Source of the DNA: an uncultured Erysipelotrichaceae bacterium
Lineage (GTDB): Bacteria; Bacillota_I; Bacilli_A; RF39; UBA660
Assembly (NCBI GenBank): GCA_902800945.1
Contig: CADCFX010000016.1
Location: 1-35,939, forward strand
DNA: 35,939 nt
Direction of reading: 5' to 3'
Part shown: positions 15,366 through 34,553 of the stretch, one piece after another
Layout: the number at the start of each line of letters is the position of its first letter
Numbering within the stretch: the stretch's first letter is position 1
Translations under genes and position numbers: made by a program
The notes under the pieces: model-generated
The model's database searches: none
Seen by the model: the letters and a program-made list of their open reading frames with translations, nothing else
Told to the model about the DNA's origin: nothing

Positions 15366-16169
15366 ATGAAAAAAATAAGTATAGAAGAGTTGAAAAAAAT
15401 CCAAATTAATATCCTGGATTATGTTGATCAATTCTGCAGAGAAAACAAAATTAATTATTGGTTAAGCTATGGCTCATTGCTTGGAGCGGTAAGACATAAG
15501 GGATACATACCTTGGGATGATGACATAGATATCGGCATGTTAAGAGACGATTATGAAAGATTTATAGCCATATTTAATAAGAAGAACAATAAATACAGAG
15601 TATGCGATTATTCAATCGATCACGATTGGCCACTTCCTTACGGTAAAATACTTGATACAACAACTTTAATGTATGAGCCAGACAAAAAAAGTGGTATTAC
15701 TACAGCAGTATTTGTAGATTTGTTTATTTATGACGATGCCCCTAATAATAAGCAAAAACTAAAAAGGGCCTTTAAAAAAAGAACAATATATAGAAAATTA
15801 CATCTTTGGCAAACATACAAAGAAGCATATAATCAAGAAAGAAAAAAGTATAATTTTATTAGATATCCAATTCATTTATTCCTTCAACTCTTTCCTAAAA
15901 AATATTTTTTGAAGAGAATATTGAAAATAGAAGTTATGTTTAGAAATAATGCTTCAAACAAGGTTGCATCGATATCTGATCAAGGGAACTACGTATTTGA
16001 TAAGAATGTACTAGAAGAATTGACGGAATTAGAATTTGAAGGCAAAAAGTTTTACGCTCCTCAAAACTATGACTTGGTATTGAGAACTTTTTACGGTGAC
16101 TACATGAAATTGCCGCCCAAAGAAAAGAGAGTATCGCATCATAGATTTGAAGCCTATTATAAAGAATAA
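15366..16169 (+). CDS. LicD-family phosphotransferase
   Basis: LicD/fukutin-type nucleotidyl-transferase-fold enzymes attach phosphocholine or related phospho-polyols to glycans. The 267-residue product carries the defining segment YWLSYGSLLGAVRHKGYIPW then DDDIDIGM, with the GS motif and catalytic aspartates, near residue 34-60. Length is typical (260-280). No choline uptake or activation genes (licA/B/C) are visible here, so the transferred group is undetermined. It is the last gene of the glycan operon; its stop codon lies inside a terminator stem shared with the convergent gene. Confidence 0.92.
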   Translation: MKKISIEELKKIQINILDYVDQFCRENKINYWLSYGSLLGAVRHKGYIPWDDDIDIGMLRDDYERFIAIFNKKNNKYRVCDYSIDHDWPLPYGKILDTTTLMYEPDKKSGITTAVFVDLFIYDDAPNNKQKLKRAFKKRTIYRKLHLWQTYKEAYNQERKKYNFIRYPIHLFLQLFPKKYFLKRILKIEVMFRNNASNKVASISDQGNYVFDKNVLEELTELEFEGKKFYAPQNYDLVLRTFYGDYMKLPPKEKRVSHHRFEAYYKE

Positions 16170-19482: not shown

Positions 19483-21600
19483 ATGAATTATGGATATCCA
19501 CAACAAGAAGAAGAGGACGTATTAGTAAAATACGGTCGCGATATTACAGAACTAGCTAAAAACAATAAAATAGATCCAGTTATAGGTCGCGACGAAGAAA
19601 TTAGAAGTATAACAAGAATATTGTCTCGTAAAACCAAGAATAACCCAGTTCTAATTGGAGAACCAGGAGTAGGAAAAACAGCAATTGTAGAAGGTTTGGC
19701 ACTCCGCATAGTAAGTGGGGATGTCCCAGAAAGTTTAAAAAAGAAAACTATTTGGGAATTAGATTTAGCAGCATTAGTTGCTGGAGCTAAATATCGTGGT
19801 GAATTTGAAGAGAGATTAAAAGCGGTTCTAAATAAGATTAAAGAATCTGACGGCTCTATTATCATGTTTATTGACGAAATACATATGATAGTAGGTGATG
19901 GCGCCGAGGGTACAATGAACGTTGGTAATATGCTAAAGCCGATGTTAGCCCGCGGAGAGATAAAATGTATCGGAGCAACAACGTTAAATGAATATCGTAA
20001 ATACATTGAGAAAGACGGCGCTTTAGAAAGACGTTTCCAAAAGATTATTGTTCAAGCTCCAACAGTTGAAGATACAATAGCCATTTTAAGAGGGTTAAAA
20101 AACTCCTTTGAAGTTCATCACGGGGTGACAATTAAAGATAGAGCATTAATTGCTGCTGCCACTTTATCTGACCGCTATATAACAGATAGATTTCTACCGG
20201 ATAAAGCTATTGATTTGGTTGATGAGGCCTGCGCAACGATTAAAGTCGAAATGGATTCGGTACCGGTTCCTTTGGATAAACTTACAAGGCGAATAATGTT
20301 GCTGGAAATTGAAAGACAATCTTTGAAAAAAGAAAAAGATGATAATTCTAAAAAAAGATTGGAAGAATTAGACAAAGAACTATATGAATTGAAATTGAAA
20401 GAAACCAAGTTGAAGGAGGACTTTGCTAAAGAAAAAGAAGCTAATGAAAAAATACTAGATAAGAAAAAATCTTTAGAAATAGCCCGCCGCCGTTTAAAAG
20501 AAGCGGAAAATAGTTATGATCTAGAAACAGCGGCACGTCTAAGCCATGGCGAAATACCAAAACTGGAACAAGAACTAGAAGAATTGCAAAAGAATACTAA
20601 AAATACTTTGCTAAGTGACACTGTTAAAGAAGAAGATATCGCTTCGGTAATATCTAAGTGGACAAACGTCCCTATATCAAAGCTAGTTGAAGGGGAAAAA
20701 GACAAATTATTAAAACTTGAAGAAAATATGAAAAAAAGAGTAATAGGGCAAGATAAAGTATTAAACAAAGTAACTAATGCTATTATAAGAAGCAGAGCTG
20801 GTATCAAGGACCCTAATCGTCCAATCGGATCGTTCTTATTCCTTGGCCCAACAGGAGTTGGTAAAACAGAAGTTGCTAAAACTTTGGCGTATGAACTCTT
20901 TGATGACGAAAGACATATGATAAGAATTGATATGTCGGAATACATGGAGAGTTTTAATGTTTCTCGTTTAATTGGCGCAGCTCCAGGATATGTCGGCTAT
21001 GAAGAAGGTGGCCAACTTACCGAAGCAGTACGTCGTAATCCTTATTCGATAGTGTTATTTGATGAAATTGAAAAAGCACATCGGGATGTGTTTAATATCT
21101 TATTACAAATACTAGATGATGGTCGTATCACTGATTCACAAGGTCGTACTGTTGATTTTAAAAATACAATAATAATAATGACCAGCAATATAGGCAGTGA
21201 ATATATACTAGAAAACCTACCTAATAAAGAAGAGCTAATTAATAAAGAATTACACTCCACGTTTAAACCGGAATTCCTAAATAGAATAGATGAAATCATT
21301 TACTTTAATTCTCTTAATAAAGACGTAGTTTATCAAATACTGGATAAGATCATCAAAGATATAGAATATCGTCTAAAAGATCGGAATATTACTATTGAAT
21401 TAACTAATGAAGCTAAAGAATATATTATTAATAATTCTTATGACGAGTCTTTTGGAGCTCGTCCAATCAAGAGATTTGTCTCTGACAACTTAGAAACGTT
21501 ACTAGCAATGGAATTGATAAATGACAAGATTAAAGATGGATCTCATCTAGTGGTTGATATTGCTAATGGAAAGTTAGTTATTAAAGAAGGAAAGGAATAA
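19483..21600 (+). CDS. clpB: ClpB-type disaggregase lacking the N-terminal domain
   Basis: A Hsp100 ATPase that threads aggregated proteins through a hexamer, usually with DnaK. The 705-residue product starts at the first AAA+ module: GEPGVGKT (59-66), IMFIDEIH, then [21 protein letters not shown] coiled-coil middle domain follows at about 260-385, rich in E, K and L and ending before the WTNVPISKL segment. The second module has GPTGVGKT (455-462), [11 protein letters not shown] and the [10 protein letters not shown]-terminal region. The middle domain and lack of an IGF-type ClpP loop favour ClpB over ClpA/ClpC. ClpB is normally about 860 residues; here the N-domain is absent, as in several Mollicutes ClpB proteins. 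ATG 19483 has GGAGGGATATAT upstream. Controlled by CIRCE. Confidence 0.93.
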
Positions 21601-23754: not shown

Positions 23755-23783
23755 TTGAAATATAGCATTTCTTATTGTATAAT
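23755..23783 (+). promoter_or_regulatory. promoter of the ten-gene SipW/TasA/McrB-like operon
   Basis: TTGAAA (23755-23760), 17-bp spacer, TATAAT (23778-23783). The -10 context TGTATAATTATA is the same as at the second fibre operon promoter (32674-32702), which hints at joint control. Confidence 0.85.
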
Positions 23784-23837: not shown

Positions 23838-23861
23838 TGAACAATAGAAAGAGTGGTTTAT

Positions 23862-24401
23862 ATGTCAAATGTAATTAAAGGAATAGGAAAAATCTTACTA
23901 ATAATAGTAGTTGTATTGTACCTGGTATTAGAAATATTCTTAGCAATTTGCCTGCTAAATTATAACGATTATCGTATAACGGTATTCGGGAACAAATCAT
24001 TATTATTATTAACTGAAGATTTGGATGAAAAATATAAAAAGAATGATTTAGTAATAGTCACTAAGGGTGATGGTAGCGAAGTAAAAGAAGGGGATTCAAT
24101 TTTCTTTTATAATCCGGGTCAGAACTATACAGTTAACTATGCTGAAGTTACAAGTATTACCCCTCATGCTAACAAGACATATACTTATAAAATTGGAACT
24201 ACGCATAATGTATATACCGAATATTATATTGGTAAAAATACCAAGGTATATAAAGGCCTTGGCGGAACTATGCGTTTATTAGAATCTAAGTGGGGATTCC
24301 TATTGTTAATCGTACTACCAACAATGATTGCTGTTATTTACGAATTCTATGCAATTATTGTTGAAATAATAGAATTTAAGAAAGAGGTTGACAATGAATA
24401 G
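23862..24401 (+). CDS. catalytically dead SipW-type signal peptidase homologue
   Basis: The 179-residue protein has the SipW plan: an N-terminal hydrophobic anchor (about 8-33), a small beta domain and a C-terminal membrane helix (about 145-170). It aligns with the active paralogue at 24983, with KKNDLVIVTKGDGSEVKEGD against the binding-fold strand and GTTHNVYTEYYIG against GDNNNVEDDPITR. The catalytic SGSM motif is replaced by GNKS, the THR histidine by a tyrosine (VNYAEV), and the GDNNN aspartate by threonine. All three lost positions speak for loss of peptidase activity with the fold kept. It may be a substrate-binding or assembly partner. First gene of the operon; ATG 23862 rather than GTG 23853. 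It overlaps the next gene by 8 bp. Confidence 0.75.
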   Translation: MSNVIKGIGKILLIIVVVLYLVLEIFLAICLLNYNDYRITVFGNKSLLLLTEDLDEKYKKNDLVIVTKGDGSEVKEGDSIFFYNPGQNYTVNYAEVTSITPHANKTYTYKIGTTHNVYTEYYIGKNTKVYKGLGGTMRLLESKWGFLLLIVLPTMIAVIYEFYAIIVEIIEFKKEVDNE

Positions 24402-24978
24402 AAAAAGAATAGGAGTTCTAATCGCCTTATCTTTACTATTACTTGTTGTTTTTACTGCGTCGTACTCTTATTCCTTATTTGAAAGCTCTATTAGCGGAGA
24501 TGCAGAAGCTACAACTGCAGACTGGTTGATAAAAGTTAATAACACATTGATTTCAACCGGTCAAACTGAGACATTTAGTGTTAATGATATACATTATACA
24601 AAGACTAACACTAACATAAGACAAGGCAAGTTTGCTCCGGGCATTTCTGGGTATTATGATTTGGAAATAGATGTTAAAGACACTCAAGTTGCCGTAGAAT
24701 ATGACATTTATGTAGATGATTTCGATTCGGAAAACTTTAAAGTTAAAGATATTGATTTGATGCAAGGAAGCTCGAATTTTACCAAGATTAACGAAAAAGA
24801 GTTTACAGGAATAATACCTGTAGGGAGTCGAGTAAATCAAATATTAAGAATTTATCTTGAATGGAAAGATCTCAACACCCCAGAAGCCAATGCTGCTGAT
24901 AGTGAAATGGGAACAAAAGAAAATCCCGATGTTGAGATACCGATTACATTACATTTCATACAATATATAGGAGAGTAA
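24394..24978 (+). CDS. TasA/camelysin-type exported protein A
   Basis: A 194-residue protein with a SipW-type signal peptide: basic start MNRKRIG, a hydrophobic core (VLIALSLLLLVVFTASYSYS) and the post-cleavage segment LFESSISGDAEA. The mature part begins TADWLIKVNNT and continues with beta-strand pairs GYYDLEIDV, EYDIYVDDF, ILRIYLEWKDL and EIPITLHFI, the pattern of TasA/CalY fibre-forming domains. The closest paralogue in the window is the reverse gene 32012-32605. ATG 24394 overlaps the stop of the dead peptidase homologue by 8 bp, and an active SipW-type peptidase gene follows 4 bp downstream, so this is a likely substrate of it. Predicted on the cell surface. Confidence 0.8.
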   Translation: MNRKRIGVLIALSLLLLVVFTASYSYSLFESSISGDAEATTADWLIKVNNTLISTGQTETFSVNDIHYTKTNTNIRQGKFAPGISGYYDLEIDVKDTQVAVEYDIYVDDFDSENFKVKDIDLMQGSSNFTKINEKEFTGIIPVGSRVNQILRIYLEWKDLNTPEANAADSEMGTKENPDVEIPITLHFIQYIGE

Positions 24979-24982
24979 TAAT

Positions 24983-25519
24983 ATGAATAGTAGACTAGTA
25001 ATAGTGAGCAGAAAAATATTCCAAGTATTAATAAATATCTTGCTAATCATTATTGGTTTACTATTATTAGTGGCTCTCTATAACTTCTATGTGATAAAAA
25101 TACAAAAAAAAGACTATGCTAGTTATTTCGGATATACTGCTTTTAATACCACAAGTGGAAGTATGGAAAAAGCTATCTATGTCGATGATTATGTATTTGT
25201 TAAGATTAATGAAAAAAAATTAAAACAAGGAGACATAATTACTTTTAAAACAAACGATACTATTATTACTCACCGGATAGTAAGAATAGATAAAGATAAA
25301 ATTACTACCAAAGGGGATAATAACAACGTTGAAGATGATCCCATTACAAGAAAAGCTGTAATAGGTAAAGTAGTACATATTGGTCGTGAATATGGTATTT
25401 ATTTAAAAATAATTAAAACTCCTCAAGTATTTATAACCTTCTTTATATCTATAATAATGATGGATATTGCCTTAGGTGAAGATAAGGAAGTGAGTAAAAG
25501 TGAGAAGAAAAAAGAATAG
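24983..25519 (+). CDS. SipW-type signal peptidase I (active form)
   Basis: A membrane serine protease of the archaeal/eukaryotic (S26B) type that cleaves TasA-like signal peptides. The 178-residue protein has an N-terminal helix (about 11-33), the nucleophile motif TTSGSMEKAI with Ser60, the strand ITHRIV with His97 in place of the bacterial catalytic lysine, and KGDNNNVEDDPI with the conserved aspartates (D112, D118-119). A C-terminal membrane helix (VFITFFISIIMMDIAL) follows. The SGSM, H and D set matches SipW. It sits between two presumed substrates, starting 4 bp after one and overlapping the other by 20 bp. Confidence 0.92.
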   Translation: MNSRLVIVSRKIFQVLINILLIIIGLLLLVALYNFYVIKIQKKDYASYFGYTAFNTTSGSMEKAIYVDDYVFVKINEKKLKQGDIITFKTNDTIITHRIVRIDKDKITTKGDNNNVEDDPITRKAVIGKVVHIGREYGIYLKIIKTPQVFITFFISIIMMDIALGEDKEVSKSEKKKE

Positions 25520-26072
25520 AATATATATGTTTATCATAGTATTTCTTCTTATAGATTTACTAGCCGTATTAGTAATGATAAATACTTCTAACGCCAGGTA
25601 TGAATCTACTGCCGTTTCTAATACAGAACTGGAAGTCGCTTTATATGCGTTAGAAGAAAATGATTCTTACACTATCTCCCTCGAAGAAATGGTTCCTAGA
25701 GAAGAACCATATGTGTACAGATTCACAGTAACTAATACAGATAAAAATGGGAGATTAACAGATGTTCGTTTGTATTACGATTTAAAAATAATTGCCACAA
25801 CTAACATGCAATTAACCTATGAATTATATAAAAATCAAAACTACTTAAGCAGTAATGCAACAAGTGCGATTAACCTTAATATAGTAGCGCCAGATGAGGA
25901 TGGAACCTTTTTTAGAACTCTAACTACTAGTCGAGTATATTTCGGATATCAGCAAGAAGAAACAAATGAATATACCTTGCTAGTGTATTTTCCGGAATCA
26001 TTTAAAGATAGTAAATATCAAGATTTGATAGAGAGCATTCAAATAAAAATCGACTCTCAACAAGCTGTATAA
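25500..26072 (+). CDS. TasA-like exported protein B
   Basis: A 190-residue protein beginning at GTG 25500 (basic RRKKNR, then IYMFIIVFLLIDLLAVLVMI) with the segment NTSNARYESTAVS in the position of a SipW cleavage site. The mature domain is beta-rich with alternating strands (YVYRFTVTNTDKNGRLTDVR, MQLTYELYKN, YTLLVYFPESF). It is shorter and more divergent than protein A, so assignment depends on the signal layout and the neighbouring SipW. GAAGGAAGTGAG lies upstream of the start within the preceding gene, which it overlaps by 20 bp. Probably a minor fibre or anchor subunit. Confidence 0.65.
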   Translation: MRRKKNRIYMFIIVFLLIDLLAVLVMINTSNARYESTAVSNTELEVALYALEENDSYTISLEEMVPREEPYVYRFTVTNTDKNGRLTDVRLYYDLKIIATTNMQLTYELYKNQNYLSSNATSAINLNIVAPDEDGTFFRTLTTSRVYFGYQQEETNEYTLLVYFPESFKDSKYQDLIESIQIKIDSQQAV

Positions 26073-26093
26073 GATAGAAATGAGGTGACACTT

Positions 26094-27044
26094 ATGAAAA
26101 AGAAAATAAGAAGAACTTTTGAATATTTAAAAACCCATAAAAAAGCAAGAATATTTAGCATAGCAATCATAAGTGTTGTCTCTATATTCTTTCTTGTGAA
26201 TTTTTCTCGATATGTTAAACAAATAATAGAGAACTACATTACCAGAACAGAAAGATTCTACTTCAATAGTGATAAACTAACTACTGACAATAAAACTTTC
26301 GAAATTAATTACTGGCCAGGAGCTGCTCCTTATGAAATCAGCATTACTGTTAACAGTTTAGATAACAACCTACGAGGAACAGACATAGAAATCGATTATG
26401 CTCTTACTTGCGAAGCGGGAGCCGGTATTCGTTGCGAATTATCCCAAAATGGTGGAACTATTGAAACAGATACTAACAAAGATACCTTTACAGCAACAGC
26501 AATTCCGACTAGGCCTTTTCAAGATGGAGAGTCTTCATATATTAAAGTAACTGCCAGAACTACCGAACCATTTGAAAAGGAACTAAGTGCCACCTTTGTT
26601 TTCGTTGTAGGGCATTATGGATTGTCATACAAAATCGAAGATGAACAAGGTCAGCCATACCTAGAATCAGTTATTTCGAATACGGATGACTATTATATAG
26701 TTAGAACCGCCTTTGGCACTCATAGTGTAGGAGATAGAATTTCTACTGCTGAGTATTCACTTTTAAGTGAAGGCGAAAAAAATAATTGCTCGGGCGTTAT
26801 CATAGAGCTTAGTTTTGACCCGAATGACTTAAGACTTGATATGACCAACTATTATTATCAAAATAAAATATCTGAAACTATTGAACCATTAAGTGATGGA
26901 TATAATTATGTTAAAAGCTTTAAATTCTCGATACCTCCTCAGACAGCTATTGCTATTAAGTTTTACAAATTAGATGTTACTGAGAATTATACCTATCCAT
27001 TAGGGGAAGATGATGATCCTATCGTGGAAATAGATGCTAGCTAG
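26094..27044 (+). CDS. membrane-anchored beta-rich surface protein, 316 aa
   Basis: One N-terminal hydrophobic helix (about residues 21-40, ARIFSIAIISVVSIFFLVNF) after a strongly basic start (MKKKIRRTFEYLKTHKKAR), then SRYVKQIIENYITRTERFYF and an exported region. The exported part seems to hold two beta-sandwich-like domains, about 50-160 (FEINYWPGAAPYEISITVNS) and 170-300 (LSYKIEDEQGQPYLESVISN). Two cysteines (ALTCEAGAGIRCEL) may form a disulphide. I cannot name the family; the start resembles the SipW-dependent proteins nearby, but no clear cleavage motif is seen, so it may stay anchored. ATG 26094 with GAGGTGAC upstream is preferred to the frame start at 26085. Gaps of 21 and 11 bp place it firmly in the operon. 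Confidence 0.65.
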   Translation: MKKKIRRTFEYLKTHKKARIFSIAIISVVSIFFLVNFSRYVKQIIENYITRTERFYFNSDKLTTDNKTFEINYWPGAAPYEISITVNSLDNNLRGTDIEIDYALTCEAGAGIRCELSQNGGTIETDTNKDTFTATAIPTRPFQDGESSYIKVTARTTEPFEKELSATFVFVVGHYGLSYKIEDEQGQPYLESVISNTDDYYIVRTAFGTHSVGDRISTAEYSLLSEGEKNNCSGVIIELSFDPNDLRLDMTNYYYQNKISETIEPLSDGYNYVKSFKFSIPPQTAIAIKFYKLDVTENYTYPLGEDDDPIVEIDAS

Positions 27045-27055
27045 AAGGTGATAAA

Positions 27056-28072
27056 ATGATTAATATAATGAATGAATACACTGCTTTTACCAAAAGATGT
27101 CTAAATAGCTATATGAAATTCATCTTGGATAAACAATACGATAAAGGAATTGTTAATAGATATATAGATAAATACATTGAAATAAGATATTCTAATTATT
27201 TAGATGAAAATACTATTAAAGACACATTAGCTAAAAAGATAACAAAAGGTATTAAAGATACAACCATAGCATTAGAAGAAAATCTGCCGGCTAATAAAGA
27301 AAATATAATTAAAAATACTGAAAAAATATTCAAATATGTAAACTCTTTAGATTCCTCTTATTTTTTAGAATCACATAATAAAGTAATTGAAAATATAGGG
27401 ATAATTAGAAGAGATATATTAGAACTTGATAATAATAATTTTTCTAATGCTTTAGATAAAATGTTAAGAGAAGATATAAAAAAAAGAAAAGAATTCTTAG
27501 ATAGTTTTTCAAGTGATACATTTTCATTGACAAAAACAAGATTGAATAAAAGTTCTAATTTACTAAGAGTAAATGTTAAAGACAATATTAAGTTTCCAGA
27601 ACTATATAGTGATATAGCTATAGACAAGGCGCGTCATAAAGATAGTATTAGTGAAGATATTATAACTATCGGTTACATACTAACAACAGTAGAGATAATA
27701 AATAATTTGATTAGTAATAATTTTAATAATACTTATTACTTACCATTACCAACGTCAATATTTAATAAAACTACCAAAAAGAATCGGCTACTAAGTATAA
27801 TAGATAACGAATATATACTAGAACATATTAGTTTGGTAATAACATTTAACGCTTTTCAACAGAACAAAAGTAATGTTGTCGAATTAATGCATAAAGGTTA
27901 TATGTTTACTATTGCTCTAGACAAAACATTTGATTATTGTTCTGAAAACCTAGAATATTTAGAAATGTTTAGCAATATTTTTATGCTAAAAGATAAATAC
28001 TACTACAAAGATATGCTAAAAAATGGTAAACTAGGTAAAAGAATAATAATAGTAGATGAGGTGGAATTGTGA
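27056..28072 (+). CDS. unknown helical cytoplasmic protein of the SipW/McrB-like operon, 338 aa
   Basis: I do not recognise this family. It has no signal peptide or confident membrane segment and is almost wholly helical: amphipathic stretches at about 5-60 and 90-160 (NTEKIFKYVNSL, KMLREDIKKRKEFLDSF), then a more hydrophobic part (IITIGYILTTVEIINNLI) and a C-terminal region ending KRIIIVDEVEL. It overlaps the McrB-like gene by 4 bp (GTGA overlap), which is typical of subunits of one complex. ATG 27056 is chosen because AAGGTG lies five to ten bases upstream; ATG 27068 is possible. A cytoplasmic partner or regulator of the ATPase is the natural guess, but nothing in the sequence proves it. 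Confidence 0.65.
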   Translation: MINIMNEYTAFTKRCLNSYMKFILDKQYDKGIVNRYIDKYIEIRYSNYLDENTIKDTLAKKITKGIKDTTIALEENLPANKENIIKNTEKIFKYVNSLDSSYFLESHNKVIENIGIIRRDILELDNNNFSNALDKMLREDIKKRKEFLDSFSSDTFSLTKTRLNKSSNLLRVNVKDNIKFPELYSDIAIDKARHKDSISEDIITIGYILTTVEIINNLISNNFNNTYYLPLPTSIFNKTTKKNRLLSIIDNEYILEHISLVITFNAFQQNKSNVVELMHKGYMFTIALDKTFDYCSENLEYLEMFSNIFMLKDKYYYKDMLKNGKLGKRIIIVDEVEL

Positions 28073-29607
28073 ATACATATGTAAGATTTTTATATGAATT
28101 CTTGGACCAATTACTAGGGGGGATAGTAACCGCTTTAAAAGGTTTGATACTTGGCATTATCCAAATGTTTGATATTCGTGCTTATGCTAATCTTATTAAA
28201 ACCTATAGTAAAGATTTTAACGGCGGTGAATGGGTATTAGTAGTACTGGCTATAGTAGTTACTATTGTCGTTCTAGCGTTAGTAATACTATCAGTGTGGT
28301 TTGTAGTGAGAAAAGCTTTAAAATTCAGAAAAACATTAGTAGAACAAGAAAGCCTATTAGAAGAAGTGGCAGATTTGCAAAGAAAAGTAGTTCAGCTTAT
28401 GAAAGAAAAAGATGAGTTATACGCTATGAAAGTTTCTCAATTAGGATTAAAACCAACAGAATCTGCACTCAGTGAAGGAGCAGGAGCAGAGCAAGAAGAA
28501 GGCGAAGAGATTCCCGAAGATGCTCAAAGTTCAAGATTCCCAAAACTTACTACTATCGATATCGAATATGCTAACTATAAAATTGTTAACTATGGCAATA
28601 GTTTTACATTACCAGACCTAGTTAACAACTTTAGAAATTTTGCCGCATCAGAATTAAAACTATATTATCAAGAAGATTTAATAAGGTTATACATAGCTGC
28701 TTTAGCATCTACTAAACTAGTAATACTACAAGGTATTTCTGGTACTGGTAAAACATCACTAGCATATGCTTGGGGAAAATTTTTAAAACACGACTCATGC
28801 GTTGCTTCAGTTCAACCATCATGGCGTGATAGAACAGAACTATTTGGATACTTCAACGAATTTACCAAGAAGTTTAATGAAACCGAAGTATTAAAAGAAA
28901 TATATCTAGCCGGATATACCGATGATATTTATACAGTAATACTAGACGAGATGAATATCTCTCGTGTTGAGTACTATTTTGCTGAAATGTTATCAATTCT
29001 AGAAATGCCTAGTCAAGATGAATGGATAGTAGAACTAGTACCAAGTGCTTGGCCAGATGATCCAAAACACTTAGATCAAGGAAAACTAAAGATAGCTCCA
29101 AATGTTTGGTATATAGGAACCATCAATAACGATGACTCAACTTTCATGGTTACAGACAAAGTGTACGACCGTGCTATGCCAATCGATATCAATGATAAAG
29201 GTCAAGTATTTGAACCGATTCCAACTGAAGCACAAGACATTAACTATTCTTATGTTAGAACCTTATTTGATGAAGCTATGAACAACAATCAAATAACACA
29301 AGAAACATTAGATAAAATAGATAAAATGGACGACTATGTTATTAAACATTTCCGTATCGCTTTCGGTAACCGTATTGTTGCCCATATGAAAAAGTTCGTT
29401 CCAGTATACGTTGGAGCGGGCGGGACAGAATTAGATGGAGTAGATTACTTCATAGCTCGTAAGATATTACGTAAATTTGAACAATTAAATATTTCCTATA
29501 TCCGAGACGAAATTGATGGATTTGTTAAATTCCTAGAAGATACTTTTGGAAAAGGAAAAATGCATGAATGTGTAGATTACTTATTAAGACTTAAGAAGTT
29601 AACTTAA
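28069..29607 (+). CDS. membrane-anchored McrB-like AAA+ NTPase with coiled coil
   Basis: A 512-residue protein. Residues 55-80 form a membrane helix (WVLVVLAIVVTIVVLALVIL), preceded by a hydrophobic amphipathic segment (10-35). A coiled coil follows at about 83-125 (LVEQESLLEEVADLQRKVVQ), then an acidic linker to about 160. The AAA+ module has Walker A GISGTGKT (222-229), Walker B VILDEMN (290-296) and the McrB-type loop GTINNDDSTFMVTDKVYDRA (from 350), close to the GTxNxDxTxxxxSxKVxDRA seen in McrB homologues whose partner is a DUF2357 protein. The canonical MNxxDR arginine is replaced by serine. It starts at GTG 28069, overlapping the previous stop. McrB proteins power DNA-directed restriction; a membrane anchor and surrounding secretion genes make a different job plausible here. 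Confidence 0.82.
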   Translation: MNTYVRFLYEFLDQLLGGIVTALKGLILGIIQMFDIRAYANLIKTYSKDFNGGEWVLVVLAIVVTIVVLALVILSVWFVVRKALKFRKTLVEQESLLEEVADLQRKVVQLMKEKDELYAMKVSQLGLKPTESALSEGAGAEQEEGEEIPEDAQSSRFPKLTTIDIEYANYKIVNYGNSFTLPDLVNNFRNFAASELKLYYQEDLIRLYIAALASTKLVILQGISGTGKTSLAYAWGKFLKHDSCVASVQPSWRDRTELFGYFNEFTKKFNETEVLKEIYLAGYTDDIYTVILDEMNISRVEYYFAEMLSILEMPSQDEWIVELVPSAWPDDPKHLDQGKLKIAPNVWYIGTINNDDSTFMVTDKVYDRAMPIDINDKGQVFEPIPTEAQDINYSYVRTLFDEAMNNNQITQETLDKIDKMDDYVIKHFRIAFGNRIVAHMKKFVPVYVGAGGTELDGVDYFIARKILRKFEQLNISYIRDEIDGFVKFLEDTFGKGKMHECVDYLLRLKKLT

Positions 29608-29625
29608 TAGAAAGGAGTGGAGAAT

Positions 29626-30741
29626 ATGGATGAAGGCTTAAATATATTAGGTCTCTATCAGAATTCTAGCGATACAAGAATTAATGGCTTTGCCAAAAGA
29701 GTAAAATCATCAATGTTAGTAGATCTTCATTATGATAAAGTAGAAGCTAATTTTGAATGGCTAGACCTGATGGAAGAAACGGTTAGATATCTAGACAATA
29801 TTCTCCGTAATCCTAATAGGTTCATAATTAATGAAGATGAAGTAGTAAAAGTTGAATTAGCTAAACACGTTACAGTAGAAAGTATCAAACATCTAGCTCG
29901 TAATACAAATCTAATCCAAGATATTGATGAAAAAACAGGAGACGTAAAACCTTCTAAAATATTAAATATAAACAAAGAAGAAAGCTTTGATACCTATGAA
30001 AACAGATTCATTTATACTTTAATAGTTAATATGGAAACCTTCTTAAATTTCAAAAAGAAATTACTACTAGAATCATCACATTTAAAAGATGATAAATCGT
30101 TAGAATATAAAGCCGCTTCAATAGTTGGAAACGAAAATATAACCATTGAACTAGCTATGAAATCATCCGTTCATACCAGAAAAAATGATGGTAAAAAGAA
30201 TGGCGATGACTTAGAAACAAGAATCAAAAAAATGGGTGAAAGAATAATTGATTTGAAGAGTACGCCTGTATTTAAGGATTTATCTCGCCGTCACGTAGCA
30301 TTGGTAAGACCGCCAATAAAGAAAACGAACGTAATATTAAAAAACACTAATTTCCAATATGCAATGGTATTATGGAACTATTTGCAAGAACATTTTGGTG
30401 ATGAAGATAAAAGAGATAAATTGGATAAGAATTACGAGGATGAGGGAGAACTAAGAGGATTATTTGATGATACATTCCTACTTGCTTACTTGGCTATGTG
30501 TACATTAAATAAAGAAGATTATGATATAAACAAAGCCAAAGAAAAAGTAATCTCTCAAGTGATTAGAAGAGTAATAGATTTAAACTCTACACTTTCCGAA
30601 AATGAGATTAAGGATTTGGTAGGAGAGCAATTTGCTATAGTAAAGAACAAGAATACTGCTACTCAAGAAGGAATTGAAAAAGTTTTCAAGAAGCATGTTG
30701 AAAAATACTTTACCAAAGTAAATGCAATCAAATTGAATTGA
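29626..30741 (+). CDS. DUF2357-type partner of the McrB-like NTPase, no nuclease motif seen
   Basis: A 371-residue soluble protein. The stretch EESFDTYENRFIYTLIVNME (about 121-140) matches the conserved TYENRF-type core of DUF2357 proteins, which pair with McrB-like NTPases and often carry a PD-(D/E)xK nuclease domain (DUF524/PDDEXK_7) at the C-terminus. Here the protein ends about 230 residues later, and I see no convincing D...ExK set in the remaining helical part (RGLFDDTFLLAYLAMCTLNK onwards). The N-terminal 115 residues are mixed, and NPNRFIINEDEVVKVELAKH recalls the DUF2357 beta part. ATG 29626 follows AAAGGAG by eight bases. It lies between the ATPase (18 bp) and a SipW-type peptidase (7 bp). 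A nuclease-free adaptor is my reading. Confidence 0.68.
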   Translation: MDEGLNILGLYQNSSDTRINGFAKRVKSSMLVDLHYDKVEANFEWLDLMEETVRYLDNILRNPNRFIINEDEVVKVELAKHVTVESIKHLARNTNLIQDIDEKTGDVKPSKILNINKEESFDTYENRFIYTLIVNMETFLNFKKKLLLESSHLKDDKSLEYKAASIVGNENITIELAMKSSVHTRKNDGKKNGDDLETRIKKMGERIIDLKSTPVFKDLSRRHVALVRPPIKKTNVILKNTNFQYAMVLWNYLQEHFGDEDKRDKLDKNYEDEGELRGLFDDTFLLAYLAMCTLNKEDYDINKAKEKVISQVIRRVIDLNSTLSENEIKDLVGEQFAIVKNKNTATQEGIEKVFKKHVEKYFTKVNAIKLN

Positions 30742-30748
30742 GGCTACT

Positions 30749-31309
30749 ATGAAAAAAATACTAGATAATAAATTATTAAATACAATAATAAGTGGAATCG
30801 AAGGAATAATATGTTTTTTTCTCTTCTGCCTAGTCGTTATAACAATATTTCAAAGAGTTAATGGAAGCTTTTTTGGATATCGTATATACACTGTAGCATC
30901 CGCATCCATGATCCCAAATTACGATGTGGGAGATGTTCTGCTGGTTTCTAAAGTAAAACTAAAAGACATTAAAATAGGTGATGCAGTAACCTATTTAGGA
31001 GAAGCACCATCGGTAAAAGATAGGGTAATAACCCATAGAGTAGAAAAAATAGATATTGAAAAAGATGGTAAATACTATTTTCACACTAAAGGTATTGCTA
31101 ATAATATAGAGGACCCAATAGTGGATGGAAAACAAATAATAGGGAAAGTAACTTATAAATTCTTCCTGTTAAGTTTTATAGGAGGAATAACCACTAATGC
31201 CTATAAAATATTCTTCTTTGTAACTGTTCCAATAGCAATCTTAATAGCTATAGAAATAATAAAAACAGTCAGAGATAAAGACGAAGAAGAAACTGTAGCA
31301 AGCGAATAA
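30749..31309 (+). CDS. second active SipW-type signal peptidase I
   Basis: 186 residues with an N-terminal hydrophobic helix (about 15-36), the nucleophile motif VASASMIPNYDVGD (Ser53, Met54), DRVITHRVEK (His96) and TKGIANNIEDPI (Asp122), then a C-terminal membrane helix (FFFVTVPIAILIAIEIIKTV). The usual GD of KGDxNN is changed to GI, but the ED pair is kept. SAS replaces SGS, which is tolerated in the family. It is 7 bp after the DUF2357 gene and 19 bp before a TasA-like gene, so it probably processes the latter. Compared with the first SipW copy the insert EAPSVKDRV is longer, suggesting a different substrate preference. Confidence 0.9.
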   Translation: MKKILDNKLLNTIISGIEGIICFFLFCLVVITIFQRVNGSFFGYRIYTVASASMIPNYDVGDVLLVSKVKLKDIKIGDAVTYLGEAPSVKDRVITHRVEKIDIEKDGKYYFHTKGIANNIEDPIVDGKQIIGKVTYKFFLLSFIGGITTNAYKIFFFVTVPIAILIAIEIIKTVRDKDEEETVASE

Positions 31310-31328
31310 GAAAGAAAGGAGTGTTAGT

Positions 31329-31967
31329 ATGAACGAGGAAGTAAAAGAAAATAATCAACCGGAAAAAAAGAAAAAGAATTACCTATTGCTATTCTTTAAA
31401 AAAAATAAAATTAAAACCTTGTTATTTTTGTTTCTTGCTCTAGCGGCTAACACTTATGCTTGGTTTATTTATAATAGAATAGTTAGTGCAAATCTAGAAG
31501 CACACGTTAAATCATGGCAAGTAACTATAGACGGTGCCATTGATGAGAATATAACTTTTGAAATTGATGATCTATACCCAGGAATGCCTGAATATAGTGA
31601 TGAAGTAACACTAACCAATGATGGAGAAATGGATGCTAATGTATCTTTTCAAATTCATTCAATTAGAATAATGGATGAATCATATACGGTCGGTGAAAAC
31701 GGAGAAACAGTAGCAAGCCTTGAAGCCAAACTCGCTTCTTATCCATTTTCAATCACCATGGAATCATCAAATTCGTTAGTAGAATCCGGAGGAGGACAAG
31801 CCAACCTTCACATATACGTTAACTGGCCATTTGGCAACGGCGACGAAGCCAAAGATCTGCTAGACACATATTGGGGAGAAAAATCATATGATTTTTCTCA
31901 AGATAATCCTACATTACCATCAATATCAATCGTCGTAAATGTTAATGTTCAACAAGTAAACAGCTAA
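31329..31967 (+). CDS. TasA/camelysin-type exported protein C
   Basis: 212 residues: a long, strongly charged cytoplasmic start (MNEEVKENNQPEKKKKNYLL), a hydrophobic core (KTLLFLFLALAANTYAW) and the SipW-type motif NTYAWFIYNRIVSANLEA. The mature domain begins SWQVTIDGAIDENITFEI and has strands SDEVTLTNDGEMDANVSFQI, ANLHIYVNW and SISIVVNVNVQQV, the TasA/CalY beta-sandwich pattern. The preceding gene is an active SipW-type peptidase. ATG 31329 has GAAAGGAGTGTTAGT upstream. Last gene of the ten-gene operon; a terminator begins within its final codons. Likely an extracellular fibre subunit. Confidence 0.82.
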   Translation: MNEEVKENNQPEKKKKNYLLLFFKKNKIKTLLFLFLALAANTYAWFIYNRIVSANLEAHVKSWQVTIDGAIDENITFEIDDLYPGMPEYSDEVTLTNDGEMDANVSFQIHSIRIMDESYTVGENGETVASLEAKLASYPFSITMESSNSLVESGGGQANLHIYVNWPFGNGDEAKDLLDTYWGEKSYDFSQDNPTLPSISIVVNVNVQQVNS

Positions 31968-31982
31968 TAAGCTGTTTTTTTT
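31959..31982 (+). terminator. terminator of the ten-gene operon
   Basis: AACAGCT/AGCTGTT stem (31959-31965, 31970-31976), loop AATA, eight T. It overlaps the stop codon of TasA-like C. Confidence 0.9.
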
Positions 31983-31990
31983 AGACAATA

Positions 31991-32013
31991 AAAAAAGGTA
32001 CTAAATACCTTTT
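31991..32013 (-). terminator. terminator of the reverse TasA-like gene
   Basis: On the reverse strand AAAGGTA/TACCTTT with a five-base loop is followed by a run of T (plus-strand A 31990-31996). It faces the preceding terminator. Confidence 0.85.
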
Positions 32014-32605
32014 ATGATGCCTTTTGAACAAATGACATACTAACGTCCAAAGTAACTTCATCAAGAGAGTTTGTAACAGCTGTATCACCAGCATTGTTCA
32101 ACTCTTGTGTATCAGTATCATCATTCCAACCTATATAAACTCTTATTGTATGGACTCTCGTAGTATCTGTTAATAAAATATCATCACTAATAGTTGGCGT
32201 TTCAACAGAAACATCAACATTATTTAAAGTTCCGTTATCAACCTTGTATCCTGTAACTATAAAATCTCGCAAATCATCATTTCTAGTAACGGCAATATTA
32301 TAGGTAAAAGACACATCAACTGCCGAAGCGTCCAATTCTAAATCAAAATATCCAGTAACCGTCGGAGCAACCACATTAGCAGCTACATGCTGACTTCCAG
32401 CGAACACAGGGGTGATTGCTTGCGTTAAAGTATCATTGTTTTTAACATTCGTATTATTTACGATTATATTCCACCTTGCAACTTGACCATTTACATCAGC
32501 TGAAGCTCGTGTTAAATATTTAGCATAGGTATCACTAACGAAGTATAAACAAACAAACAAGGATAAAAAAGATAACAACAAGAATATTTTTCTTTTATTT
32601 TTCAT
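32012..32605 (-). CDS. TasA/camelysin-type exported protein D (divergent gene)
   Basis: 197 residues with start MKNKRK, hydrophobic core IFLLLSFLSLFVCLYFV and the SipW-type motif DTYAKYLTRASADVNG. The mature region ARWNIIVNNTNVKN aligns with TADWLIKVNNTLIST of protein A, GYFDLELDA with GYYDLEIDV, and RVHTIRVYIGWNDD with RVNQILRIYLEWKD, so A and D are close paralogues. It is the only reverse-strand gene in the fibre region and stands alone between two facing operons, with its own promoter and terminator and a perfect GGAGG before the ATG (32603-32605). It likely uses one of the SipW enzymes encoded 1.3-7 kb away. Separate transcription suggests a differently timed or major subunit. Confidence 0.85.
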   Translation of the reverse strand: MKNKRKIFLLLSFLSLFVCLYFVSDTYAKYLTRASADVNGQVARWNIIVNNTNVKNNDTLTQAITPVFAGSQHVAANVVAPTVTGYFDLELDASAVDVSFTYNIAVTRNDDLRDFIVTGYKVDNGTLNNVDVSVETPTISDDILLTDTTRVHTIRVYIGWNDDTDTQELNNAGDTAVTNSLDEVTLDVSMSFVQKAS

Positions 32606-32630
32606 TTATACCTCCTTTATTATATAAATA

Positions 32631-32658
32631 ATTATAACATCAAAAACAAAATTGTAAA
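32631..32658 (-). promoter_or_regulatory. promoter of the reverse TasA-like gene
   Basis: Reverse strand TTTACA (32658-32653), 16-bp spacer, TATAAT (32636-32631), with TGT before it giving an extended -10. Confidence 0.8.
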
Positions 32659-32673
32659 ATAAAATAATTGGTA

Positions 32674-32702
32674 TTGCATTTCACACTTGTTCCATGTATA
32701 AT
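32674..32702 (+). promoter_or_regulatory. promoter of the second fibre operon
   Basis: TTGCAT (32674-32679), 17-bp spacer, TATAAT (32697-32702). The -10 context TGTATAATTATA is identical to that of the large operon's promoter at 23755-23783. Confidence 0.83.
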
Positions 32703-32706
32703 TATA

Positions 32707-32739
32707 ATAACGATATGATAGGGAATTCATATACGTTAT
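32707..32739 (+). promoter_or_regulatory. leader hairpin of the second fibre operon
   Basis: ATAACGATATGA pairs with TCATAT(A)CGTTAT (32707-32718 with 32727-32739) as a 12-pair stem with one bulged A and an eight-base loop TAGGGAAT. No T-run follows. It lies about 50 bases before ATG 32787. Confidence 0.5.
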
Positions 32740-32786
32740 CTCCATTTACAAGCTCAAGGTGACTATAAGTTAAAGGAGAGTATGAT

Positions 32787-33500
32787 ATGGCTAAAGAAGT
32801 GGTGCTAAAAGCACAAGACATCAAGCGAAGAAAGAAAATTGAAAAAGTAGCATTACTACTTTTATTATTGTTATTAGTAATATTAACATTTGCTTACTTC
32901 GTATTGAATGTTGTCTACAACGAAGGACATTTTACAATAAGTATGGATAAGAATACTTATTTAAGAAGCAACCTAGTCATGTACGAATCGATGAATGATA
33001 GAAGTTCAGTAATAAAACTCTCTGCAGAAAAGATTGCTTTTATGGATAACATATCCATAAAATGGTTGCCGGATAACATTAATAAAGCTGAAGGTGGGAA
33101 CCACAATGGTGAAAACTATATCGCATATACTTTCTACTTAGAAAATAAAGGCGAGGAAAATATCAATTATTGGTATTCAGTAATAATTGATGACGTAATA
33201 AAAAACGTCGACGATGCAGTAAGAATAATGATATTTCTTGATGACGAAAAAACAGTATATGCCAAAAAAAATAGTGTTACAAACCAACCTGAAAAAGACA
33301 CCAAACCCTTTGCTAATGAGAAAGATGGAACAATTATTCTGGAAAAAAGAGAAAAAATGATCCCTGGCAAGATTGATAAAGTAACAATTGTCATTTGGCT
33401 AGAAGGTGATGATCCAGAATGTGTAAATGCAATCTTAGGTGGAGAGATGAAGATGCATATGAATATAATTGAAGAACATGTCGAAGAAAAAAGTGTATAA
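32787..33500 (+). CDS. membrane-anchored TasA-like accessory protein, 237 aa
   Basis: A basic, charged cytoplasmic start (MAKEVVLKAQDIKRRKKIEK), a leucine-rich hydrophobic helix (VALLLLLLLLVILTFAYFVL) and an exported domain of about 190 residues. Strands such as YIAYTFYLENKGEENINYWY and KVTIVIWLEGDDPECVNAIL follow the CalY/TasA order (a strand with N-x-G near a bound-chain motif, then a W-containing strand). The typical SipW signal motif TYAxF is only hinted at (TFAYFVLN), so it may be either cleaved or anchored. AAAGGAGAG precedes ATG 32787. It is followed after 12 bp by the large TasA-like gene, suggesting a minor subunit or fibre-base role like TapA. I am not certain of the family. Confidence 0.65.
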   Translation: MAKEVVLKAQDIKRRKKIEKVALLLLLLLLVILTFAYFVLNVVYNEGHFTISMDKNTYLRSNLVMYESMNDRSSVIKLSAEKIAFMDNISIKWLPDNINKAEGGNHNGENYIAYTFYLENKGEENINYWYSVIIDDVIKNVDDAVRIMIFLDDEKTVYAKKNSVTNQPEKDTKPFANEKDGTIILEKREKMIPGKIDKVTIVIWLEGDDPECVNAILGGEMKMHMNIIEEHVEEKSV

Positions 33501-33512
33501 GGAGAATGAAAA

Positions 33513-34553
33513 ATGGCGAAAAGAAACAGAAAAGATGAAAGAAAAAGAAGATTACTATTTTTAATATTCTTGTTTGTGTTAACTATAGCAATTGGCGGTA
33601 CAGCTACCTATGCATGGTTTACATCAAATAGAACAATATCTGTAGACCCATTAGATGTTAACGTAACAACAGTTAATGGTTTACAAATTAGTGCAGATGC
33701 AATCAACTGGGGAGCTAAAGTAACTAGAAGCGACTTAGAAGGAGCGAAGGACGGCGAATATGGTGGAGCTACTAACCAATTGCCTGGAACGTTAGGTGCA
33801 ATGTCAACATCAGGAAATGTTAATGGTGGAATGCTTGATATGTTCTACGGAGTAGTAAATACTGCTGAAGATGGATCAGGTAACTATTTGTTAACAGCTA
33901 CAAAGCAAACAGAAGAAATAAATTGTACTGGTGATACACAATGTGCAGGAAAATACTTCATCGCTTTTGACCTATTTATCAAAGCAGATGCTGATATGGA
34001 AATTGTTATGACTAGTAACTCTAACGTAGTTACTACAAATATTCCTGGTGTAGCAACAGGTGATAGAGGAATACAGAACGCAGCTCGTGTAGCCTTCCTA
34101 GAAGAGGGGCATTATTCAGCTGATACTCCAATTGCAACAATCCAAGGAGCTAAGAATGCTACTACTGCTGAAATTTGGGAACCAAACTATAACATGCATA
34201 CAATCCAAGGAGCACAAAACGCTTACTCTGTATATGGAAGAACAGTTGCAACTGATGGAACAGCAGGACGTTTAAACTATGTTGGCGTTAAGTCAAATGT
34301 AACAGGAGTAAATATTAAGCAAACTGAAACAGATACAACTCATTTTGAATCTGTAGCAATTAAATATCAAACAATAGCTGGAAATACTGACGACATTAAT
34401 TTCCGTGTTAACGAATCCGGAAGTACTAAGTTATTAAAAGGTGTTACAAAATTCAGAGTTTACTGGTGGGTTGAAGGACAAGACGTAGATGCAGAAAACA
34501 ACGCAACTGGTACTGCAATGAGATTGAATCTAGAATTCGCCATAAAAGAATAA
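33513..34553 (+). CDS. large TasA-like exported protein, candidate major fibre subunit
   Basis: 346 residues with a very basic start (MAKRNRKDERKRR), hydrophobic core LLFLIFLFVLTIAIGG and a textbook SipW-type site, TATYAWFTSNRTISVDPLDV. The mature part is rich in G, A, T and N, unlike the lysine-rich proteins around it. It has a cysteine pair (NCTGDTQCAG) that could form a disulphide, two copies of a TIQGAxNA motif (about 208 and 230), and a final strand set FRVYWWVEGQDVDAENNAT and MRLNLEFAIKE. Codon choice looks more restricted than in neighbours (many GGA, GCA, ACA), as expected for an abundant protein. GGAGAATGAAAA precedes ATG 33513, and a strong terminator follows. The size and composition make it the best candidate for the main polymer subunit. 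Confidence 0.8.
   Translation: MAKRNRKDERKRRLLFLIFLFVLTIAIGGTATYAWFTSNRTISVDPLDVNVTTVNGLQISADAINWGAKVTRSDLEGAKDGEYGGATNQLPGTLGAMSTSGNVNGGMLDMFYGVVNTAEDGSGNYLLTATKQTEEINCTGDTQCAGKYFIAFDLFIKADADMEIVMTSNSNVVTTNIPGVATGDRGIQNAARVAFLEEGHYSADTPIATIQGAKNATTAEIWEPNYNMHTIQGAQNAYSVYGRTVATDGTAGRLNYVGVKSNVTGVNIKQTETDTTHFESVAIKYQTIAGNTDDINFRVNESGSTKLLKGVTKFRVYWWVEGQDVDAENNATGTAMRLNLEFAIKE

Follow-up and report, generated by a model that had tools for sequence, protein, structure and literature searches.

The McrB-like protein described here is probably the motor of a CoCoPALM system that helps to export or assemble SipW-dependent surface fibres. It is encoded at positions 28069–29607 of the forward strand of the window, that is, the whole stretch of DNA analysed (35,939 nucleotides from an uncultured Erysipelotrichaceae bacterium). 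Its sequence describes an AAA+ protein of the NxD kind, held at the membrane by a predicted one-helix tether, paired with a DUF2357 protein that appears to be nuclease-less and genetically coupled to signal peptidases. Judged by these features, the McrB/McrC pair is no restriction enzyme. An earlier note on this DNA had suspected that the protein acts at the envelope and not in ordinary restriction, and genomic context, membrane anchor and a split from canonical McrB (100/100) all point that way, the mechanism itself being our own proposal. To our knowledge, experiments have so far shown McrBC-type motors at work only in the restriction of nucleic acids. If our reading holds, the CoCoPALM group would gain a concrete role: among uncultured Bacilli and Clostridia of the gut, it would supply the power by which SipW-dependent surface fibres are exported or assembled. 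Our reading would also carry a warning, as automatic defence annotation can catch such motors: the PADLOC candidate defence model PDC-M26A matches the window McrB with an E value of 1.5e-32.

The gene begins with a GTG codon at 28069, overlapping the stop of the gene before it, and its frame stays open to 29607, giving a protein of 512 amino acids. Family-averaged hydropathy peaks at residues 56–80, with a mean Kyte-Doolittle value of 3.4 in 29 order-level homologues and of 3.0 in 25 class-level ones, so that the membrane helix formerly placed at residues 55–80, and with it the anchoring of the protein in the membrane, is borne out. About five lysine or arginine residues follow directly C-terminal of this helix, hence the AAA+ side is predicted to be cytosolic, and the protein is expected to cross the membrane once. 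A second transmembrane segment, at residues 15–34, was considered and discarded, because the family-averaged hydropathy there is too low; the whole stretch 8–34 is moderately hydrophobic, at most 1.3, and makes no clear helix of this kind. The coiled coil, which had been claimed over residues 83–125, fares less well: it remains plausible within this stretch, yet shorter than first claimed, because hydrophobic columns 96, 100, 103, 107, 110 and 117 match the a/d spacing while the 3.5-residue periodicity over residues 89–124 is not significant (p = 0.11). The AAA+ module, by contrast, is as the note had it. The Walker A motif GISGTGKT (222–229) and the Walker B motif LDEMN (292–296) are invariant in 29/29 homologues of the order; E. 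coli McrB is the sole match of a PDB search with the family profile (E 1.8e-6), and hhalign aligns the AAA+ domain with it at 96.5% probability (E 9e-10). McrB is also the best conserved protein at the locus, with a median identity of 69% against 29–51% for the others.

The signature loop reads GTINNDDST, where N353-N354-D355-D356 makes an N-x-D-D motif (N-x-D-D-S-T, 353–358). The major branch of McrB proteins that carries NxD at this place usually continues with a glutamate or a second aspartate (Bell et al., 2024; PMC11090510). Our census covered 139 distinct relatives, and N-x-D-(D/E)-S-T was found in all 136 where the motif could be read, with aspartate in the fourth position in 128 and glutamate in 8. 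By its match to the published branch and its constancy in this census, the loop is best taken as a fixed signature of the clade and the standard form of the NxD branch, no chance change: the NNDDS letters had been read correctly, but calling them altered was wrong. A reading of the loop as a degenerate NxxD motif was rejected, as the eight relatives with glutamate depart at the fourth position whereas N-x-D never varies. Two maximum-likelihood trees of the AAA+ domain, built with a canonical reference set of 14–20 McrB proteins including that of E. coli K-12, both split NxD proteins from canonical NxxD McrB at 100/100. We looked for the window McrB within the canonical McrBC clade and found it outside, in a membrane-anchored NxD clade supported at 99/95. 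The canonical NxxD side of the trees also takes in two proteins from the same bacterial family (G006 and G016), and the genomes of these two hold both the NxD and the NxxD kinds.

The neighbours of the membrane-anchored clade in these trees are soluble, longer, CoCoNuT-like NxD proteins carried on plasmids. The window protein groups apart from them, and the kinship with CoCoNuT defence systems leaves some room for a role in defence. Along this line, a membrane-sited NxD McrBC would sense phage at the envelope and then damage the membrane or block the surface, the signal peptidases being its effectors or sensors. That the closest soluble relatives belong to CoCoNuT-like systems (a helicase-like AAA protein, a hypothetical protein, McrB and DUF2357) would suit such a role, as would the match of McrB to PDC-M26A and a presence that is patchy within genera. 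The partner gene and the composition of the operon tell against it, and we regard it as unlikely.

The partner, overlooked in the earlier note, lies directly downstream, at 29617–30741 on the forward strand, and encodes 374 amino acids in which DUF2357 (PF09823, E 2e-12, over cut-off) is the only domain matched. DUF2357 is the N-terminal domain of McrC-type proteins. The model is matched by 19/20 orthologues of the partner, while no nuclease family was found by HMM in 20/20; the soluble NxD relatives of Lactobacillaceae, for their part, have DUF2357 plus PDDEXK_7. Comparing its profile with McrC of E. coli itself revealed no similarity, so that we call it McrC on the strength of DUF2357 and of gene order. 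Since the absence of a nuclease is judged by HMM, a decayed nuclease fold in this protein is possible. The window McrC ends with its DUF2357-type region and has no long coiled coil, a kind of extension seen only in other clades, in relatives of 500–998 amino acids. For a defence system the missing nuclease would be awkward: CoCoNuTs without an active McrC nuclease always adjoin another nuclease (Bell et al., PMC11090510), and here, apart from the match of McrB to PDC-M26A, no nuclease, HEPN or other toxin or defence model was matched in the operon proteins scanned.

What surrounds the pair is mostly concerned with secretion, in a fixed order, which again is hardly what one would expect of a defence locus. 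The operon (23853–31967) comprises ten genes, tightly packed on one strand, with short intergenic gaps that are conserved among relatives, and the block continues through 32012–34553. A promoter-like site precedes it at 23755–23783 (forward strand, 11 of 12), a consensus match in a region without excess of such sites, and a terminator-like hairpin, likewise a consensus match, marks its end at 31958–31977 (forward strand). The first gene, TM182 (23853–24401), encodes a signal-peptidase-like paralogue that scores 20.1 bits with TIGR02228, below the cut-off of 51.85 bits, and has no catalytic motifs; both the serine and the histidine motif are absent in 68/88 hits of this family in our motif census. 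The two SipW/archaeal-type signal peptidases, SPaseA (24983–25519, 74.1 bits) and SPaseB (30749–31309, 77.7 bits), keep both motifs. Between and beside them, and also on the forward strand, stand the genes of small TM-anchored secreted proteins of the Tas196 (24388–24978) and Tas190 (25500–26072, one polypeptide with a signal peptidase in 4 loci) families, then that of a TM-anchored secreted protein of a family that we name Ig319 (26085–27044). There follow UNK, an uncharacterised soluble protein of 338 amino acids (27056–28072) directly upstream of McrB and overlapping it, McrB and McrC themselves, SPaseB and, as the last gene, a secreted protein of the Tas212 family (31329–31967) with an AWF motif after its hydrophobic N-terminus; at L130 and L153 a protein of this family is joined to a signal peptidase. 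The accessory block beyond begins on the reverse strand with a divergent paralogue of the Tas196 gene (32012–32605), whose opposite orientation is conserved, and returns to the forward strand with a TM-anchored protein of the TM237 family (32787–33500) and a secreted Tas346 protein (33513–34553). Further upstream in the window, 15366–16169 encodes by its sequence a LicD-like phosphotransferase, at the end of an apparent group of surface polysaccharide genes.

The secreted proteins suggest what the signal peptidases may be for. In 103/113 Tas346 and 80/86 Tas212 members, the hydrophobic segment at the N-terminus ends in an aromatic motif of the AWF type (TYAWF in the window Tas346), as compared with 45/1204 unassigned open reading frames, where the pattern searched was slightly different. 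This motif resembles the SipW-cognate signal. The corresponding model, TIGR04088, is matched by 4/20 Tas346 members, the window protein staying below threshold at 16.3 bits (cut-off 19), and TIGR04090, the model of the BsaA family, by 1/20; neither is matched in the Tas212/Tas196 set. No relative of the operon's secreted proteins is detectable in the PDB, and the comparison with TasA and BsaA, made through the signal region and the genetic context without proven homology, is accordingly a weak one. In organisms where such proteins have been studied, SipW is required for the secretion of BsaA and for its polymers (PMC7395162), and it processes both TasA and TapA (PMC9674648). The paralogue deprived of catalytic motifs has a counterpart too, as pilus assembly in S. 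pyogenes requires a signal-peptidase-like protein in which the catalytic residues are missing (PMC4049620).

This arrangement is far from a chance occurrence, as far as comparative genomics can tell. A McrB match was present in 41/146 genomes of the order, about 40 being real copies, nearly all full length and 49–74% identical. A genome-wide scan returned more than 500 relatives, the best 80 coming from uncultured gut Bacilli, Tenericutes, Clostridia and Ruminococcus. One gene order recurs, with local losses and across many genera, in 132 distinct loci: TM182, Tas196, SPaseA, Tas190, Ig319, UNK, McrB, McrC, SPaseB, Tas212, (reverse) Tas196, TM237 and Tas346. Where more than 4 kb was available on each side of McrB (93 distinct loci), a signal-peptidase-like gene stood within 11 kb in 81, and 5 of the remaining 12 lie outside the core clade; the chance expectation is about 4%, given that 1.2 Mb genomes devoid of the locus have some two TIGR02228 genes each. 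Genomes with the locus have 4.6 signal peptidases against 2.1 without it (p 6e-10), an excess that we do not retain as independent proof, as it is largely contributed by the operon itself. No relative of the window McrB was found in viral contigs, and those in plasmids and phage records match the AAA+ domain, none of them spanning the membrane part; an origin in mobile elements was therefore dismissed, and the void in viral contigs also argues against defence.

Gene fusions bring the coupling closer still. SPaseA is joined to UNK in 18 loci and a signal peptidase to a secreted subunit in 6, while at one locus of Ruminococcus (L188) a protein of 998 amino acids joins McrC, via a coiled coil and a transmembrane segment, to a signal peptidase, both models being over cut-off (DUF2357 33.8 bits, Peptidase_S26 23.4 bits). 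It is on these fusions, seen at other loci, that we base the proposed coupling of McrC to SPaseB and of UNK to SPaseA. The mechanism might then run as follows. Six McrB subunits would assemble into a ring at the cytosolic side of the membrane; the DUF2357 protein would enter or cap this ring and turn on NTP hydrolysis, as in McrBC of E. coli; the ring would be connected to the signal peptidases in the way just described; the hydrolysis cycle would drive, or at least order, the steps by which the secreted subunits are extracted from the membrane, cleaved and set free; and these would finally build a fibre on the cell surface, comparable to those of TasA or BsaA. Some observations count against export: no family can be assigned with confidence to the secreted proteins, McrC is absent beside the McrB of L101, L106 and L107, signal peptidases are wanting at a few other loci (listed below with the variants), and the locus is patchy (about 40/146 genomes of the order). 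Moreover, the SipW systems known to us, tapA-sipW-tasA and sipW-bsaA, function without an AAA+ motor.

The same parts could be turned the other way, towards quality control. FtsH and Bcs1-type AAA+ proteins extract proteins from the membrane, and the AAA+ pair might similarly remove unprocessed or misassembled TM-anchored subunits instead of powering export, as befits a cytosolic, membrane-tethered AAA+ protein standing beside signal peptidases and TM-anchored substrates. There is even an unfoldase gene at hand: 19483–21600, upstream of the operon, encodes a ClpC-like double AAA+ protein, which is however present at only 3 related loci and thus not conserved. The operon has no cytosolic protease domain or partner, and the fusions tie the system to peptidases acting outside, in favour of a forward role. 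Quality control of this kind seems to us improbable, and an export motor better agrees with the fusions.

UNK leads to another conjecture. It shows a weak EAL-like register, with one Pfam EAL match at E 0.045, and EAL genes in or beside CoCoPALM loci never occur with UNK (0/67 loci with UNK, against 10/17 without). The ring might in this light be a regulator or a scaffold, an NTP-switched, FtsB-like membrane oligomer that localises the signal peptidases and moves no substrate, to which this complementarity and the short FtsB-like transmembrane segment plus coiled coil (PMC11090510) would lend themselves. We find this very unlikely: invariant catalytic motifs and a conservation above that of every other protein of the locus fit an active motor, and the GGDEF proteins of the order are almost all GdpP-sized, which makes a cyclic-di-GMP switch unlikely in this genome. 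As for UNK being itself an EAL (cyclic-di-GMP) domain, hhalign gives it 2% probability, and with nearly all GGDEF hits of the order being of GdpP size we keep it as a lead only. In other families, EAL genes were noted in or beside the CoCoPALM loci L096, L100, L103, L104, L106, L107, L109, L110, L174, L175, L179, L180, L183, L188 and L191; at L247 (G151:C24), an apparently truncated McrB gene, of which the C-terminal half (202 amino acids) is left, has a GGDEF/EAL-type gene directly beside it.

Returning to the export motor, the window system belongs, by nearly all that its genes display, to a group already named and as yet unstudied. The name CoCoPALM was given in one paragraph and the subject left to a later paper, the features mentioned being an FtsB-like transmembrane and coiled-coil N-terminus and signal peptidases; about mechanism there is a suggestion of pilus assembly only, and SipW does not appear in the main text (Bell et al., 2024; PMC11090510). 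In the literature searched, the name in this sense was found only there and in the corresponding preprint. The window McrB has NxD followed by aspartate, the transmembrane segment at 56–80 and a suggestive coiled coil, an adjacent DUF2357 partner, and as neighbours two members of TIGR02228 with a sub-threshold paralogue. It differs from the group (PMC11090510) in its short McrC of 374 amino acids, where the usual, not strictly defining, long coiled coil is absent. The earlier note, which had rightly seen kinship with McrB and had set CoCoNuT systems aside as defence loci, had overlooked this group and missed the SipW-type neighbours. With CnuB and CnuC of CoCoNuTs the window pair shares the NxD AAA+ domain, the DUF2357 partner and a neighbouring place in the tree; membrane anchor, secretion genes, an operon without match to nuclease or HEPN models and a separate clade set it apart. 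The CoCoNuT-like references are soluble, with McrB of 788–813 amino acids beside a helicase-like gene and one for a hypothetical protein, HEPN not being demonstrated in them. McrBC of E. coli K-12 has in common with it the McrB AAA+ domain and the two-gene order, and differs by its DNA-binding N-domain, its NxxD motif, its nuclease and its lack of a membrane anchor. The loci tapA-sipW-tasA of B. subtilis and sipW-bsaA of C. perfringens likewise set a dedicated SipW-type signal peptidase beside secreted proteins, whose SipW-type signal region those of the window resemble, yet without an AAA+ motor, and the likeness of the secreted proteins is weak and confined to the signal region. SipA of S. 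pyogenes (PMC4049620) is encoded at a surface-filament locus and, like TM182, is related to signal peptidases but devoid of their catalytic residues; it works with sortases, whereas no sortase was found among the operon proteins scanned. What we add to the published picture is a neighbourhood of the SipW type, the gene fusions, a pair in which no nuclease is recognisable, and a tree that sets the window McrB apart from CoCoNuT-like proteins. That CoCoPALMs at large are NTP-driven, Gram-positive machines for the export of surface fibres, in which the McrBC ring has been re-employed as a membrane motor working with SipW-type signal peptidases, is a wider view that we put forward tentatively, a little short of calling it probable.

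Several variant loci deserve mention. Signal peptidases are wanting at the McrB loci L057–L060, L062, L066, L067, L156 and L160; all of these but the last two have the variant order UNK-McrB-McrC, with a protein of 418–1027 amino acids in place of the block of signal peptidases and secreted proteins. The genomes of L101, L106 and L107, where McrB has no adjacent DUF2357, hold further McrB loci with DUF2357 (for example G190:C22 24044 and 38850), and the copies at L101, L106 and L107 perhaps share one McrC with the other loci. An unannotated faecal phage scaffold labelled 'Bacteriophage sp.' (MT835511, L270) encodes an NxD McrB of 824 amino acids (GTANQDESTF), akin to the soluble CoCoNuT-like proteins. 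Finally, in a sister clade of the core group (L093, L094 and L095), two membrane McrB proteins flank one DUF2357 protein in a tandem McrB-McrC-McrB, after which come two membrane proteins of 1000–1700 amino acids.
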